Origin: a virus
Virus record (IMG/VR): IMGVR_UViG_3300008625_000032
Span: 1 to 37,260 of that record
Length of the DNA: 37,260 nucleotides
Strand: one strand, 5' to 3'
The position numbers and the translations under genes are program-made. This document shows positions 8,682 to 37,239 of the stretch, in pieces (position 1 is the first letter of the stretch; every line of letters begins with the position of its first letter). The notes beneath the pieces are model-generated. The model was not told the origin of the DNA. It saw nothing but the letters and a program-made list of their open reading frames with translations, and ran no database searches.

Positions 8682-9012
8682 TCAATAACCTTAGAAATTC
8701 CTTTATGTCCATAGTGACATATGTCTTACTTCTGTTTCTTTTAAATATCAATAATGGTTCGTAACCATTTGAATTATTTTCAGCTTGTTCTAATGCTTTC
8801 CATATAGACAAAGCTTCTTGATTTTTACACTCAATAGCGTAAGGAATCAATTTTCTTGCAGCAGGTGATAATTGTATATCTTCTCCACTTGCTCCCATTG
8901 ATGTAGATTTAATATCGTCTTGTTCTAAAACGTTCTGAAAGGTTTCGAGTAATAAATCTCTTACCTTATTTTGTAGTCTTTTGCCTTTGTTCTTGCGGGA
9001 ACGTGTGTTCAT
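8662..9012 (-). CDS. PD-(D/E)XK nuclease-like protein (Holliday-junction-resolvase type)
   Basis: 116 residues. The basic N-terminus is followed by a helix carrying QNKVRDLLLE, then GASGEDIQLS with Asp45 and the strand YAIECKNQ with Glu61 and Lys63. This is the D...ExK core of the PD-(D/E)XK superfamily, in which Cys between E and K is common in small phage and archaeal resolvases. The rest (ALEQAE...PLLIFKRNRSKTYVTM) fits the following helix and strands. It is the first gene of a recombination/replication cluster with primase and Mre11-Rad50, suggesting branch resolution or end processing. Substrate is inferred from the neighbourhood. A modification-dependent nuclease is an alternative. Confidence 0.7.
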   Translation of the reverse strand: MNTRSRKNKGKRLQNKVRDLLLETFQNVLEQDDIKSTSMGASGEDIQLSPAARKLIPYAIECKNQEALSIWKALEQAENNSNGYEPLLIFKRNRSKTYVTMDIKEFLRLLSESKNS

Positions 9013-9201
9013 AAAAAAACTTATTTAACTTAATTACTTATTTAGTGTTTTAGTTGTTATTAGTTATTAGTAAGTATACTGGTTATTCACATTTGGTTTT
9101 AAATTAGGCATAGGAATCATGAAATAAAACCAGTTATGGTAATATATAACCATTATTTATGTATACATTAGTAATATATATATTCACACTGGAAGAAACA
9201 A
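9013..9201. other. AT-rich intergenic region with two inverted repeats
   Basis: 189 nt between the zincin gene (stop at 9202) and the start of the nuclease gene. It holds an 8-bp inverted repeat, TGGTTTTA (9094-9101) and TAAAACCA (9125-9132), followed by ATGGT (9136-9140) and ACCAT (9149-9153) around an AT spacer. TATACT on the minus strand (AACCAGTATACTTAC) could be a -10 for the replication genes, but no good -35 is seen. No tRNA or convincing ORF was found. Confidence 0.5.
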
Positions 9202-10780: not shown

Positions 10781-11194
10781 TTATTTTGTTACCCTTTTAA
10801 CCTTTTCTATAGAACGACCTGCAAAATAAGCCGCATAAACAGTCATCAATAATGTCTGATAAACTGGAACATACGCCGCTCCTATTGTAAAGTCACCCAA
10901 ATTTCCATCAAATACACTTAATATAACAAATACCGCTGTAAGAAAAATTAAAGTAATTGGTCTAATATTTTTACTTAACCAACTACCATGTTTCATATCA
11001 GCTTCCCAACGAGCAGATACTTGTTCTTGTGCCGCTTGTTCAGCTTGTATTAATATGGTTTCTAACTTTTGTTTCGCTTCAGCTTTCTCTTCACCTGACA
11101 TATGTAGGTCATCAATAATATTTCCCACATCTTTAAGTGTATCTCCACCCAATAGTGAACCAGCTCCTTTAGCAATTGTACTTAATAATCCCAT
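10781..11194 (-). CDS. Holin-like protein (3TM/GTA-type holin family)
   Basis: 137 residues. A cytoplasmic helical N-terminus (DLHMSGEEKAEAKQKLETIL, then AEQAAQEQVSARWEADMKHG) is followed by SWLSKNIRPITLIFLTAVFV and a second hydrophobic stretch VYQTLLMTVYAAYFAGRSIE. The SWLSKNIRPITL signature and terminal GRSIEK are typical of the 3TM-type holins found in gene-transfer agents and phages. About two clear membrane helices lie at 78-96 and 106-125. It would time lysis by permeabilising the inner membrane. RBS AGGAG lies 9 nt before the ATG. No endolysin with a clear catalytic motif is next to it. Confidence 0.8.
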   Translation of the reverse strand: MGLLSTIAKGAGSLLGGDTLKDVGNIIDDLHMSGEEKAEAKQKLETILIQAEQAAQEQVSARWEADMKHGSWLSKNIRPITLIFLTAVFVILSVFDGNLGDFTIGAAYVPVYQTLLMTVYAAYFAGRSIEKVKRVTK

Positions 11195-11204
11195 AACTTT
11201 TCTC

Positions 11205-11579
11205 CTAAAATTGTTCCGCAGCTAATCCATCATCTATAGCATCTTTTATATCATCTTTAGTACAATCAATTTTACCATCCATATCAGCTTTCCACACTTC
11301 CATTTTGTCACCATTTATATATAACGCTATTGAAGGAAAATTACGAATCCTTAATTTCTTACACAACTTCTTGGTTACATCAGAACGTGCTTCAAGTATT
11401 TTAGCATCCTCGTAACCTTTCAAACCCTTTAATATTTTTGGGTCTAAATCTTTCTCCTGCCATTTAGAAGTAAATTTTATAATCACTACTCCCTTACCAG
11501 CTTCATCCTTAAAATTCTTATCAGTAACCTGAGAGAATACCGATGAAATCAAAAATAGTACTCCTATTAAATATTTCAT
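11205..11579 (-). CDS. Exported thioredoxin-fold protein lacking the CxxC site
   Basis: 124 residues. Residues 1-16 (MKYLIGVLFLISSVFS) form a signal peptide with likely cleavage before Gln17. The mature part follows the thioredoxin layout: VVIIKFTSKW strand and active-site loop (31-40), helix, RIRNFPSIALYINGD with the cis-Pro candidate Pro82, and a final helix. Where WCGPC would stand it reads WQEKD, so the redox cysteines are absent; single Cys residues at 73 and about 105 do not form CxxC. It is therefore more likely a binding or chaperone-type fold in the periplasm than an oxidoreductase. RBS AGGAG 6 nt before the ATG. It lies between the holin-like and MshEN-like genes. Confidence 0.65.
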   Translation of the reverse strand: MKYLIGVLFLISSVFSQVTDKNFKDEAGKGVVIIKFTSKWQEKDLDPKILKGLKGYEDAKILEARSDVTKKLCKKLRIRNFPSIALYINGDKMEVWKADMDGKIDCTKDDIKDAIDDGLAAEQF

Positions 11580-11588
11580 AACAAACTC

Positions 11589-12188
11589 CTATTTATCACG
11601 TTTCCTTCGCTCAAGGTCTTTTATATCCTTTTGCAATTCTTTAATTGTTTCTTCAAGTTCTTCCACCATCTCATAAACAACATCCATATCATCTTGAAGT
11701 CCACCTACTTGATTTTTATATTGTTCAAAAGACCTTGGCCAATTATGACCTTCTGGTTTAGATGGATATTCTGCTTCATACAAACTTTCTAAACTTGGTA
11801 ATTGTTTGGCTTCTTCAATTTCTCCTTGTAGTGTATACCACATTCCAATTAATGACGCGAGCCCCATTCCGGCCGCTACCATAGTTTGAACCGATAGTGT
11901 GAATTTAGTATCTAATACTTTATCTTCACTTATTTCAATTGGTTCTTTTTTCTTTGAACTTGATTCTATCTTTTCAGCAACTTCTTCTTGTTTTACTTCG
12001 TGGCCATTTCCATGTTCTAATACAACGGCTGTTATATCATCAAGTGTACAAAAACCTTTATCAACAAGTATTTCACCAAGACTACGTTTGTCACCTTTTA
12101 TTTGGTCTTGTAGGGCTTGGTTTAATTGTCGCTTAGTGATAATATATTCATCACAAAGTAACTTACCTATTTTAATGTCTCCATTCAT
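11589..12188 (-). CDS. MshEN-like domain / transmembrane / coiled-coil protein
   Basis: 199 residues. Residues 5-52 match the two-repeat pattern of the MshEN (GspE/PilB N-terminal) domain: KIGKLLCDEYIITKRQLNQA then LQDQ, and after a short linker SLGEILVDKGFCTLDDI. MshEN domains of type II secretion and pilus ATPases bind cyclic di-GMP. Here the usual R-L-G and first G are K-I-G and E. One membrane helix follows (about 98-120, TLSVQTMVAAGMGLASLIGM) and the C-terminal 40 residues are a charged coiled coil (DDMDVVYEMVEELEETIKEL). With the N-terminus inside, the coiled coil would be periplasmic, a topology shared with inner-membrane spanins. RBS AGGGGA before the ATG. The function is unknown; a lysis or signalling role is inference. 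Confidence 0.6.
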   Translation of the reverse strand: MNGDIKIGKLLCDEYIITKRQLNQALQDQIKGDKRSLGEILVDKGFCTLDDITAVVLEHGNGHEVKQEEVAEKIESSSKKKEPIEISEDKVLDTKFTLSVQTMVAAGMGLASLIGMWYTLQGEIEEAKQLPSLESLYEAEYPSKPEGHNWPRSFEQYKNQVGGLQDDMDVVYEMVEELEETIKELQKDIKDLERRKRDK

Positions 12189-16067: not shown

Positions 16068-16721
16068 CTAATCAGCAGTTACATTAACTGGTACATCAGC
16101 ATTGATTGTAACAGGTATAGTATATGTAGCACCAGTTTCATTACCGACTATGGTAAGTTGTGTATTGATATCAGACGACAATGTTCTTGCAATCAAGTCT
16201 ACTGATTTAGCTACAACGGTTATTGAATTTTTCCTATCATCATCACCAATGAATGTTGGGATAGTAGCTCCTTGAGCTGATACCTCACCACCTGCAGATA
16301 CCATCATACGACAAGCATCAGAGTTATGTAACACAAAAGTATACCCAAGAGTAGCGTCTGACGCGTTTCTTGTGTTCGGTGTTATTGTTTGTTTAACACC
16401 AGCTTTCTTAAATGTCATAGAAGCAGTTGTTAATTCAAGTATAGGCATCTTAGCTGTATTTTTAGGTAATGTTGTTAGTTTATATCTCATTACTTGATTT
16501 TCATCTGGTACAGCTTCAATTAATGGCATGTTCTCTATAACACTACCATAATAATTTGAACCAAGAGAATTAGTTACATCCCATAGTGTGTAATCTATTT
16601 CATCATCAGCTAATGCAAATTTTGTAATTTTAAATTCGTTTCGACCACGAGCCAATAGTTCTCGACCTTTTTTAGTTAGTATCGCGTCTACGGTTGTTGA
16701 AGAGTTATCTAAAAATCCCAT
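16068..16721 (-). CDS. Virion structural protein (MGFLDNSS...VDAILTKKGRE family)
   Basis: 217 residues beginning MGFLDNSSTTVDAILTKKGR, followed by FKITKFALADDEIDYTLWDV, an opening I recognise from structural proteins of marine T4-like phages. After it comes a beta-rich, Thr/Val-rich part ending in an Ig-like style strand series (VTINADVPVNVTAD). RBS GGAG lies 9 nt before the ATG. Two late-type boxes precede it, so it appears to head the operon 16721-13822. Its position in the virion is not evident. Confidence 0.7.
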   Translation of the reverse strand: MGFLDNSSTTVDAILTKKGRELLARGRNEFKITKFALADDEIDYTLWDVTNSLGSNYYGSVIENMPLIEAVPDENQVMRYKLTTLPKNTAKMPILELTTASMTFKKAGVKQTITPNTRNASDATLGYTFVLHNSDACRMMVSAGGEVSAQGATIPTFIGDDDRKNSITVVAKSVDLIARTLSSDINTQLTIVGNETGATYTIPVTINADVPVNVTAD

Positions 16722-30997: not shown

Positions 30998-31324
30998 TTA
31001 ACCTTTAACTCCGGCTACACCAGTAAATTCTTTTATAACGAATGCGTCTTTTTTATCATTAGGTACACTTGAATTAGTACCACCACCCATAGTTCCACTT
31101 GGATTATTATCCATTTGTTCTTTTATTTCTTCACTTGACGCATTATACCAAGATGTATTTTCCAATACTTTAAATACCGATTTATCGTCAAGAAACATAA
31201 ATCCAGCAAAACTCTTTGGGCCTGTGGTAATCGTGTCACCATCTTGTACCATTTTACCAGGTGACGTTTTTTTACCATTTAGTTTTACAATACCTTTTAC
31301 TTTCATTAATACTGCTTTACTCAT
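30998..31324 (-). CDS. Small FecR-like beta protein of the hub region
   Basis: 108 residues. VKGIVKLNGKKTSPGKMVQD, then GDTITTGPKSFAGFMFLDDK and SVFKVLENT, follows the FecR-type beta pattern (G-x-V, G-x-x-V-x-x-G-D-x-I-x-T-G-x-x-S). A Gly/Asn/Ser-rich linker precedes the end AGVKG, the same tail as in the two paralogues upstream. Encoded between those paralogues and gp25. A hub- or spike-attached role is inferred from position; FecR folds often mediate binding to other proteins. Confidence 0.6.
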   Translation of the reverse strand: MSKAVLMKVKGIVKLNGKKTSPGKMVQDGDTITTGPKSFAGFMFLDDKSVFKVLENTSWYNASSEEIKEQMDNNPSGTMGGGTNSSVPNDKKDAFVIKEFTGVAGVKG

Positions 31325-31326
31325 GA

Positions 31327-31674
31327 TTACCCTCTCACTCCTGCTGTAGCAGTTATTCCTTCTACTTCATAGTTTTCACTCGTAACATTTTGTATTTCTT
31401 CCCATACCGTATTTTCCCACATAGCATCTAAATCAAAATCAGGTTCTAATGTAGCACTAAATTCACCTTTACCTACAAATTTTGTTGGTGTACAAGAAAC
31501 ATCACCAGTTTCATCCATAATAAATATACCCTTACCAGTTATAGTTAACTCATCAGCATTAATTCCATTCAATTCATCTAACTCAAAAACTTCTTGGCCT
31601 TGTTTAGCTCCCTCACCATTAATGGTTGGTTGTCCTTTAACACCAATTACTTTACCTAATTTTAACTCTGGCAT
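31327..31674 (-). CDS. Small hub-region protein, paralogue A
   Basis: 115 residues. Clearly paralogous with the protein at 31727-32080: both carry KGQPTINGEGAKQG, DVSCTPTKF and the end ITATAGVRG. The sequence is beta-rich with a FecR-like outline (KVIGVKGQPTINGEGAKQGQ; ADELTITGKGIFIMDETGDV). RBS AAGG 6 nt before the ATG. A late-type box lies 17 nt upstream of the start, suggesting an internal promoter for the rest of the operon. The function is unknown; a spike- or hub-associated small subunit is plausible. Confidence 0.65.
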   Translation of the reverse strand: MPELKLGKVIGVKGQPTINGEGAKQGQEVFELDELNGINADELTITGKGIFIMDETGDVSCTPTKFVGKGEFSATLEPDFDLDAMWENTVWEEIQNVTSENYEVEGITATAGVRG

Positions 31675-32041
31675 AATTTACCTTATTATTATATAAATAT
31701 TGTTCTAAAATGTTTATGTTAATTTTTTATCCCCTGACACCTGCAGTAGCAGTTATATTCTCTACTTCACCAATTATTTCTTCACCAATCTCTGTAATCT
31801 CTTCCCATTCTACATTATCCCATATACTTTCCAAGTCTAAATCTGATAATATAGTACAAGAAAAATTACCCTTACCAATAAATTTTGTTGGTGTACAAGA
31901 AACATCACCACTATCGTCTAATATTGTCATTCTTTTACCAACTATAGAAATCTCATCATTATCAATTCCACTAATTTCATCTAAATCATAAATATTAGCA
32001 CCTTGTTTAGCTCCCTCACCATTAATGGTTGGTTGTCCTTT
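31598..32041. repeat. Direct repeats from gene duplication (403-nt offset)
   Basis: The 41 bases at 31598-31638 recur without change at 32001-32041, and the 31 bases at 31477-31507 recur at 31880-31910. Both lie at the same offset within paralogues A and B. They are a potential site for recombination that would delete or duplicate one copy. Confidence 0.85.
31692..31699 (-). promoter_or_regulatory. Late-type promoter box TATTTATA before paralogue A
   Basis: The minus strand reads ACAATATTTATATAATAATAAGG. The box ends 17 nt before the ATG at 31674, the shortest such distance for a gene with an RBS. A start about 7 nt downstream would place AAGG almost at the mRNA 5' end. Confidence 0.5.
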
Positions 32042-32080
32042 TATAGTTATAATAGTTCCAAGTGTTTTACGAGTATCCAT
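31727..32080 (-). CDS. Small hub-region protein, paralogue B
   Basis: 117 residues, MDTRKTLGTIITIKGQPTIN onwards; it aligns end to end with paralogue A, sharing GQPTINGEGAKQG, SCTPTKF(V/I)GKG, W(E/D)N...EWEEI and the end ITATAGVRG. At DNA level 41 bases are identical (31598-31638 and 32001-32041) and 31 more (31477-31507 and 31880-31910), all offset by 403 nt, so the duplication is recent or kept alike by recombination. The start overlaps the 555-residue gene's stop (1 nt). Same unknown role as its partner. Confidence 0.65.
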   Translation of the reverse strand: MDTRKTLGTIITIKGQPTINGEGAKQGANIYDLDEISGIDNDEISIVGKRMTILDDSGDVSCTPTKFIGKGNFSCTILSDLDLESIWDNVEWEEITEIGEEIIGEVENITATAGVRG

Positions 32081-35720: not shown

Positions 35721-35728
35721 TATTTATA
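35721..35728 (+). promoter_or_regulatory. Late-type promoter box TATTTATA before the mini MscS-like gene
   Basis: The plus strand reads TGATATTTATATATGACAAC, with the box ending 30 nt before the GTG at 35759. It shares TGATATTTATATATGA with the distal 16810 copy on the opposite strand, each oriented toward its own gene. Confidence 0.65.
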
Positions 35729-35758
35729 TATGACAACTAACCAACTAAGGATTTTATT

Positions 35759-36103
35759 GTGGATAAAACAATTATAGAAAGCCTTATCGGTGAGTATGGT
35801 TGGTTATTCCTTGCGGGTATTCTTACCCTATTATTTCAAAGTACTATACAAGAAGCGGTAGATGGCATAATGGTTTTTTTAGGTAATGACTATAACGAAG
35901 ATGATGTCGTAGAAGTTGATGGTGCACCAGGCCGTATCGTAAGAGTTGGCACGTGGAAAACTGTATTCTTTATCTACCATGTAGTAGGTGGTAAAATAGT
36001 AGGTGGTTCTAAATTGGTAGTAGCAAATTCTAAATTAAAGGATTTGAAAATCGAAAAACCACTACCTAACTTGGATTTATCAAAATACGAAGAATCGAGT
36101 TAA
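35759..36103 (+). CDS. Mini MscS-like membrane protein (one pore-type helix plus beta domain)
   Basis: 114 residues from GTG at 35759 with AAGG 8 nt upstream. A single hydrophobic helix (about 14-42, WLFLAGILTLLFQSTIQEAV then DGIMVFLG) is followed by DYNEDDVVEVDGAPGRIVRV and TWKTVFFIYHV...GSKLVVANSKLK. In MscS channels the pore helix TM3 leads into a beta domain with the order G-D/E-x-V, G-x-x-G-x-V, a Thr, then V-P-N-x-x-L; here E48-D49-V, G55/G58, T68 and VANSKL occur in that order. The protein thus looks like the TM3 and beta-domain core alone, without TM1, TM2 or the alpha/beta domain. It would sit in the inner membrane. Pore function is inferred. Confidence 0.6.
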   Translation: MDKTIIESLIGEYGWLFLAGILTLLFQSTIQEAVDGIMVFLGNDYNEDDVVEVDGAPGRIVRVGTWKTVFFIYHVVGGKIVGGSKLVVANSKLKDLKIEKPLPNLDLSKYEESS

Positions 36104-36144: not shown

Positions 36145-36152
36145 TATTTATA
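36145..36152 (+). promoter_or_regulatory. Late-type promoter box TATTTATA before the small membrane gene
   Basis: The plus strand reads TAGTTATTTATAGACG, with the box ending 38 nt before the ATG at 36191, the same orientation and near-equal spacing as the other copies. Confidence 0.6.
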
Positions 36153-36190: not shown

Positions 36191-36412
36191 ATGAAAGAGA
36201 TTATGAAAACCGTAAACGAATCAATAACAGGGATTATGGAAACGTTACTTAATTTTATTGCTGTAGGAGCAATAGTTGAAGTACTTTTCGGTTCTGGTGT
36301 ATTTGGTGTTAGTGTGATAGGAAACTTGACCACCATCATTAATGGATTCGGAAATAGTGGTTTTGCTGGTTTACTAGCCTTATTTTTCTTGGTCGGATTA
36401 TATAAGAAGTAA
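36191..36412 (+). CDS. Small hydrophobic two-helix membrane protein, unknown
   Basis: 73 residues with a strong RBS (AAAGGAGAGAC) 5 nt before the ATG. Hydrophobic stretches LLNFIAVGAIVEVLFGSGVF and GFAGLLALFFLVGLYK flank a Gly/Asn-rich turn (NLTTIINGFGNSG), giving two probable membrane helices. No known motif is seen. It is downstream of the mini MscS-like gene on the same strand, with its own late-type box, and is followed at once by a terminator. The size and topology fit small holin/antiholin-like proteins, but the sequence does not show this. It does not resemble the holin-like protein at 10781. Confidence 0.65.
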   Translation: MKEIMKTVNESITGIMETLLNFIAVGAIVEVLFGSGVFGVSVIGNLTTIINGFGNSGFAGLLALFFLVGLYKK

Positions 36413-36424
36413 CCACATAAAATG

Positions 36425-36453
36425 AAAAAGGGGAACAACGTTCCCCTTTTTTT
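36425..36453 (+). terminator. Strong bidirectional rho-independent terminator
   Basis: AAAAAGGGGAAC, loop AAC, GTTCCCCTTTTTTT: a perfect 12-bp stem with a GC core and a T-tract on plus and, by symmetry, on minus. It lies between the end of the plus-strand membrane cassette (36412) and the end of the minus-strand sigma gene (36523), which converge here. Confidence 0.92.
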
Positions 36454-36522
36454 ATAATTGATATAATATCCCCAATCTCAACACTTAAAGTTACAAAGAA
36501 AATATATAAAAGTCAAGAGCTT

Positions 36523-37239
36523 TTAAAAACTATATTTGTATTTATTGCTACTATTCAAATTCATATCAGGATTTATCATTGAACCAGTATAATCAACGTT
36601 TATTTGGCCAAATTCATTATATTCATATGATAGTCTTTTATGATATTTCTTTAAAGTATTTACAACTCTTGTAATATGTTGTGTATTAGAACCAGTCATC
36701 TCACGAATAAGGATATAAAGAGCCTTTTTATTAAAATTCTCAAGATACATTCTTCGTCTAAACAATTCTAATATTGCATCAACTATTATAATATCCCTAT
36801 GTCTCTTAAAAACTTTATTTAAGTTCATATCCCAAAATCTCAAAGTCTCTATCATAAATTGAGAACCTTCATCCATGAAATTATCATCTTGTGTTTTTTT
36901 ATTCTCACCATAATCCAAAGAAGCAATATCTTTCTTCTGTTTGTAACTCTTGTAGTTTTTATTATTATGTAAAATCAAATAATTTTTAGCTACAATACTA
37001 AAGTATGAGAAAGCTTTTCCCTTACCTTCTTTAAATTTATGCATATTCATAACAAGAAAAGACATAACTTCGTGTTTTACATCTTCACTGGGTACATCGA
37101 AGTAATAAAACTTAAAAGTATGAATAATATTCTCACATAACTTATCAAAAGCTTTATGAATATGTTCATTATAAATACGTTCTCTCATATAAGGACGTTC
37201 TTCTTTATTGTAACGAATAATAGCCCTTTCCGTATCCAT
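36523..37239 (-). CDS. 55: Late-transcription sigma factor, gp55-like (start may lie outside window)
   Basis: 238 residues from ATG at 37239. Residues 68-100, KFKEGKGKAFSYFSIVAKNY then LILHNNKNYKSYK, match the sigma region-2-like core of T4-type gp55 (compare NFD....NPHAYITQACFNAF in T4). It is preceded by helices (EDVKHEVMSFLVMNMHKF) and followed by a helical part with IIIVDAILELFRRRMYLENF. gp55 recruits host RNA polymerase to late promoters together with the sliding clamp; here it would recognise the TATTTATA boxes. No Shine-Dalgarno precedes the ATG, and the seven codons up to the right edge are open in frame, so the true start may be further right. Convergent with the plus-strand cassette across a terminator. 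Confidence 0.7.
   Translation of the reverse strand: MDTERAIIRYNKEERPYMRERIYNEHIHKAFDKLCENIIHTFKFYYFDVPSEDVKHEVMSFLVMNMHKFKEGKGKAFSYFSIVAKNYLILHNNKNYKSYKQKKDIASLDYGENKKTQDDNFMDEGSQFMIETLRFWDMNLNKVFKRHRDIIIVDAILELFRRRMYLENFNKKALYILIREMTGSNTQHITRVVNTLKKYHKRLSYEYNEFGQINVDYTGSMINPDMNLNSSNKYKYSF

Follow-up and report, generated by a model that had tools for sequence, protein, structure and literature searches.

Why does a phage carry a gene for a protein that resembles only the central part of the channel MscS? The question is raised by positions 35759–36103 (+ strand) of the viral DNA analysed here, a stretch of 37,260 nucleotides from IMG/VR record IMGVR_UViG_3300008625_000032 (the window), in which a preliminary description had proposed a 114-residue minimal MscS core. 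The open reading frame list and its translation agree with that description: the frame opens with GTG, 7 nt downstream of an AAGGA ribosome-binding site (35747–35751, + strand), encodes 114 amino acids and a stop, and contains the listed motifs in the order given, EDDV at residues 47–50, GAPGRI at 55–60, T68 and VANSKL at 88–93. Stops are abundant in the frame read on the opposite strand. The gene is real and under purifying selection, because dN between it and its nearest relatives is 0.05–0.12 against a dS of 0.50–1.12; this low dN, together with 24 columns that are invariant in an alignment of 35 representative relatives (identity down to 46%), argues that the four motifs are not a product of chance. 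A search of IMG/VR with six peptide patterns recovered 86 relatives and a profile search 351, and the alignment revealed signatures particular to this phage family (GNDYNEDD, GxPGRIVR, KTVFF and IEKPLPxLDL). PHROGs holds no family for the window protein or its relatives. In the INPHARED phage collection, no relatives were found with five family or sister members as queries, and one further sister query gave matches at E 3–5 only. A fragment of a longer MscS gene, or a break in the assembly, was ruled out as the origin of so short a frame: independent contigs share a near-identical start point and mostly the same stop point, and their starts follow each contig's own promoter-type motif or ribosome site. 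The window was also scanned for Rfam families and tRNAs, and none were found.

It is highly probable that the window protein is homologous to the MscS core, that is, to TM3 and the beta domain. Its best Pfam match is the MscS beta domain, PF00924, at 18.8 bits, just below the cut-off of 20.2; this domain is matched by 31 of the 35 family members (best E 3.2e-6), and the cut-off is exceeded by L054 (25.4 bits), L053 (23.5 bits) and a copy binned in a Pelagibacter metagenome-assembled genome (MAG). For profile comparison, 29 TM3-plus-beta cores of cellular MscS proteins were taken from bacterial genomes, an E. coli MscS core sequence serving solely to locate the regions. Aligned to these with hhalign, the phage family gave a probability of 79.6 (P 1.5e-5) in an alignment that passes ungapped from TM3 to the beta domain. 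The score of 35.3 was higher than those of all 150 column shuffles (maximum 22.6) and all 100 block shuffles (maximum 26.8), a reversed profile scored 13.0, and an unrelated membrane family used as a control reached a probability of 3%. In a search of 142 bacterial genomes, the phage profile matched one phage copy and, at E 0.001–0.006, four further proteins, all four being genuine MscS relatives that score 56–73 bits with the cellular profile and align at TM3b plus the beta domain. Chance resemblance was ruled out by the shuffled and reversed controls and this reciprocal search. The main-family proteins share about 14–25% identity with cellular MscS, and a sequence search of the PDB with the main family profile gave no meaningful match.

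The predicted structure points the same way. A single-chain AlphaFold model of moderate confidence (mean pLDDT 78, pTM 0.56) has a TM3a-like helix at residues 3–25, a TM3b-like helix at 27–43, a beta domain at about 50–89 and a short C-terminal tail. The helix break at residue 26 adjoins Q27, the equivalent of MscS Q112, so that this prediction reproduces the kink between TM3a and TM3b. All 24 best Foldseek matches in the PDB were MscS or MscS-like channels (best 3.4e-4), including 3udc and 3t9n, which are titled only 'membrane protein' and which we take to be a bacterial MscS. VIA-align placed the whole model on residues 88–189, TM3 plus the beta domain, of its top structural match, E. coli MscS (PDB 2oau, 4hwa, 6rld), with Z up to 8.8, the Trypanosoma cruzi channel TcMscS at 8.1 and the first unrelated row at 6.2, a Z near 8 being a value that by itself may reflect a common arrangement. 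Profile similarity to MscS and a predicted helix plus MscS-like beta domain were thus both found, rather than no similarity and another fold, and the reading of a minimal MscS core is upheld.

What the protein lacks is equally clear. It has one hydrophobic helix, at about residues 13–26, and no second hydrophobic segment is apparent in any aligned family member, in keeping with the single pore-type helix followed by a beta domain that had been described. TM1 and TM2 are absent, and with them the canonical MscS architecture of at least TM2 before the pore helix; the C-terminal alpha/beta cage is absent too, as the protein ends shortly after the beta domain. We know of no characterized MscS channel without TM2, which counts against a channel. 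In the shared register, L24 corresponds to MscS L109, Q27 to Q112, G36 to G121 and T68 to T153, and Q27, L24 and G36 are retained in most family members. The equivalents of G101, A102, A106 and G108 are L, F, I and T, so most of the Gly/Ala packing residues of TM3a are lost, and G20 occupies the seal position of MscS L105, which also counts against a channel. The segments N-terminal of the helix are net negative in nearly all members, and positive residues follow the helix in most of the divergent ones. The charge rule does not settle the orientation for the window's own clade, where the stretch following the helix carries a net negative charge.

The main family also departs from MscS in its last strand: the (I/V)PN motif is not kept, N90 being invariant and the proline replaced by A, Q or V, and the strand is preceded by an insertion that E. 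coli MscS does not have. A sister phage subfamily, composed of a second copy in contig L046 and of L288–L294, carries the (I/V)PN motif without the insertion. Its PDB sequence matches are exclusively MscS, if weak (E about 0.8), and the L046 copy scores 24.1 bits with PF00924. This subfamily is a second, divergent kind of mini-MscS with IPN/VPN kept, and it adds to the case for homology; its L046 copy (8691–9020, + strand) adjoins a main-family copy.

Whether an MscS core of this kind forms a pore is a further step, and so is each use suggested for it in the preliminary description (lysis timing, osmotic relief or superinfection control). We lean slightly towards a pore. One alternative is a membrane-anchored Sm/SH3-like domain that has kept the MscS fold and has an adaptor or scaffolding role at the host membrane instead of forming a channel. 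The single helix and the loss of the small-residue face of TM3a fit such a role, as does the distribution of the strongest conservation, which falls outside the helix, namely within the beta domain, immediately ahead of it and in the tail (the stretches GNDYNEDD, GxPGRIVR and IEKPLPxLDL). However, an adaptor would not account readily for the unbroken MscS register from TM3 into the beta domain or for the retention of the TM3-equivalent Q27, L24 and G36, and we consider it unlikely.

The phage itself gives few clues to its host. By baseplate wedge and primase it is far from cultured phages, the nearest isolates being Microcystis phage Mel-JY01 (46% and 41% identity respectively) and Flavobacterium phage immuto (38% and 41%); neither gave an MscS-like match, an empty answer that carries little weight. 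Binning placed two relatives in MAGs of Pelagibacter and Marinimicrobia, which is no proof that these are hosts. An MscS of their own is present in 67 of 76 sampled bacterial genomes of one class, which makes the need for a phage copy less obvious. The same figure would suit another possibility, that the phage protein, consisting of exactly the central parts of an MscS subunit, is a mimic that enters host MscS rings and alters or blocks their gating, giving the phage control of host osmotic release. Identity of only about 14–25% to cellular MscS and the loss of both the IPN proline and the TM3 packing residues make this improbable.

As to when the protein is made, a late-type promoter had been proposed, and this stands in part. 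A promoter-type motif does precede the gene; it is not the T4 motif TATAAATA, but TATTTATA(TATGA) on the coding strand. The T4 late promoter was rejected, as TATAAATA occurs 12 times in the window against 9.3 expected, a chance frequency. The 13-base sequence TATTTATATATGA (35721–35733, + strand) starts 38 nt before the GTG and has three copies in the window, all of them between genes and oriented like the genes; the other two lie ahead of the gene at 16068–16721. Among 45 family loci, 27 have ATATTTAT within 120 nt upstream, compared with 1.1 expected from each locus's own rate. In a related contig the promoter-type motif is also ahead of an acidic gene, scaffold-like by eye, that adjoins a gp23-like capsid gene. 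That the motif recurs at the family loci and also before head genes of a related phage is evidence, though not proof, that the MscS-like gene is transcribed late. A separate observation is that the minus-strand gene at 36523–37239 encodes a 238-amino-acid protein that by eye resembles a T4-type late sigma factor and matches a transcriptional regulator in PHROGs only weakly (E 0.015).

The MscS-like gene and a second gene form a two-gene plus-strand unit between a minus-strand tail and baseplate block and a minus-strand gene. The second gene (36191–36412, + strand) is preceded by another TATTTATA motif (36145–36152, + strand), and a hairpin with T-runs on both strands (36425–36455) is likely to be a bidirectional terminator that closes the unit. 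Its product is the adjoining small membrane protein of the preliminary description, a hydrophobic protein of 73 amino acids with three predicted helices, and belongs to a separate, widespread phage family found at at least 313 phage loci. This family (36191–36412 on the + strand of the window; L206–L285) has 27 invariant positions in 23 members; it gave no confident PHROG match, two members tested gave no Pfam match, and with a model of the 73-amino-acid protein Foldseek returned no BFVD match and no PDB chain to align. An obligate partnership with the MscS-like protein was ruled out: none of nine further carrier contigs that were scanned, which are fragments, showed an MscS-like gene, and in other clades that gene has other neighbours. 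Only in the window's clade do the two share a transcription unit. Because its neighbours differ from clade to clade, the surroundings of the MscS-like gene are as for an accessory gene. Elsewhere in the window, three consecutive small proteins of the baseplate block (30998–31324, 31327–31674 and 31727–32080, – strand) all end in AGV(R/K)G, possibly a signal for processing or docking that they have in common; the second and third are related to each other. In addition, a phage membrane protein with a domain that by eye resembles a cyclic-nucleotide-binding (Popeye-like) domain is encoded in L017 (11479–12135), L041 (14808–15458), L044 and L049.

A small membrane protein of late type might also serve in lysis, forming the pore as an unusual holin or pinholin that fires at a set time. 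In one clade (L152, L162 and L166) the MscS-like gene does adjoin a gene of an annotated holin family (PF23987, E 4e-14, tested in L166), but the two are on opposite strands. The window phage, 25 kb from its MscS-like gene, has a separate holin-like gene at 10781–11194 (– strand; PHROG 3427, E 3.3e-28; PF11351 at 24.0 bits, cut-off 24.8), which makes lysis less likely as the main job of the MscS-like protein. No holin family in PHROGs or Pfam matches the window protein, and one of the 35 family members matches a holin PHROG, at E 0.29. The MscS-like protein is therefore probably not the lysis pore, and we regard a lysis function as very improbable. The holin-like gene is adjoined by genes at 11205–11579 and 11589–12188 (– strand) for a secreted thioredoxin-like protein and a membrane protein with a coiled coil; similar proteins, together with an outer-membrane-like barrel protein, recur near the MscS-like gene in L017, L028, L049, L051 and L053–L058. 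Another conceivable role, in superinfection exclusion or in DNA ejection at the inner membrane, would suit a small membrane protein whose gene sits as if in a cassette, on the other strand from the adjoining genes both in the window and in the L152/L162/L166 clade. It is hardly credible, given that no similarity to known exclusion proteins was found in PHROGs or Pfam and that for exclusion one would sooner expect an early promoter than a late-type motif.

We propose instead that the phage makes a membrane protein homologous to MscS and trimmed to its core, the beta domain preceded by the TM3 pore helix. It would be expressed late from the phage's own promoter and inserted into the host inner membrane, with its N-terminus presumably outside and its beta domain cytoplasmic, as in MscS. 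Several subunits, probably seven, would come together as a ring around a small pore lined by TM3a. Taken up to the point of a membrane pore made late, this explanation has in our estimate a probability of about 0.5. The pore could then act as a tension-relief or ion/osmolyte valve that prevents early bursting of the infected cell or adjusts its turgor, before the separate holin ends the infection. This specific osmotic-valve role is the weakest step, the most likely job of such a pore rather than a demonstrated one. A pore or valve is supported by the precedent of TcMscS, a cut-down channel that is tension-gated (PMC12334622). In its widest form the proposal is that the smallest MscS-type channel known is a product of hundreds of environmental phages, one pore helix and a beta domain forming a self-assembled, tension-gated or lipid-plugged pore that manages turgor before lysis; this we offer tentatively, as rather doubtful in its entirety.

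Among the closest known designs is TcMscS, which a 2025 paper presents as the minimal functional unit among MscS channels (PMC12334622). Like the phage protein, it is without TM1 and the C-terminal alpha/beta cage and runs from TM3 into the beta domain (PDB 9bgq; PMC12334622, PMC8282336); unlike it, TcMscS keeps TM2 and an N helix, and is a eukaryotic and proven tension-gated heptamer. E. coli MscS differs in having TM1, TM2, the C-terminal cage, a Gly/Ala-rich TM3a and the IPN motif. Among viruses, gp51 of Paraglaciecola Antarctic GD virus 1 (PANV1), a myovirus of 151 kb, is mentioned in one sentence as an HHpred match to MscS (6RLD) (PMC9239159); compared by description only, it resembles the present protein in its phage origin, its match to MscS and its membrane helices, of which no more than one is predicted, and that weakly. 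The giant viruses Aureococcus anophagefferens virus and Sylvanvirus encode MscS-like proteins (PMC6163359), which have a virus-encoded MscS domain in common with the phage family, but these are weaker structural matches to the phage model, are larger (261 and 651 amino acids, the first with three predicted membrane helices) and come from viruses of eukaryotes. MscS matches in a phage and in giant viruses were thus already known, whereas a search of the open literature, in which most subscription papers fall outside coverage, found no description of the present family.

Current phage family libraries leave this gene unannotated. If its product is a pore, it would be smaller than TcMscS, the smallest MscS shown to be functional. 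A phage family that has one helix fewer than TcMscS, yet is under strong selection, would provide a direct test of which parts are needed for tension sensing. It also suggests that control of host turgor, an aspect of infection that has received little study, is entrusted by some phages to a dedicated gene.
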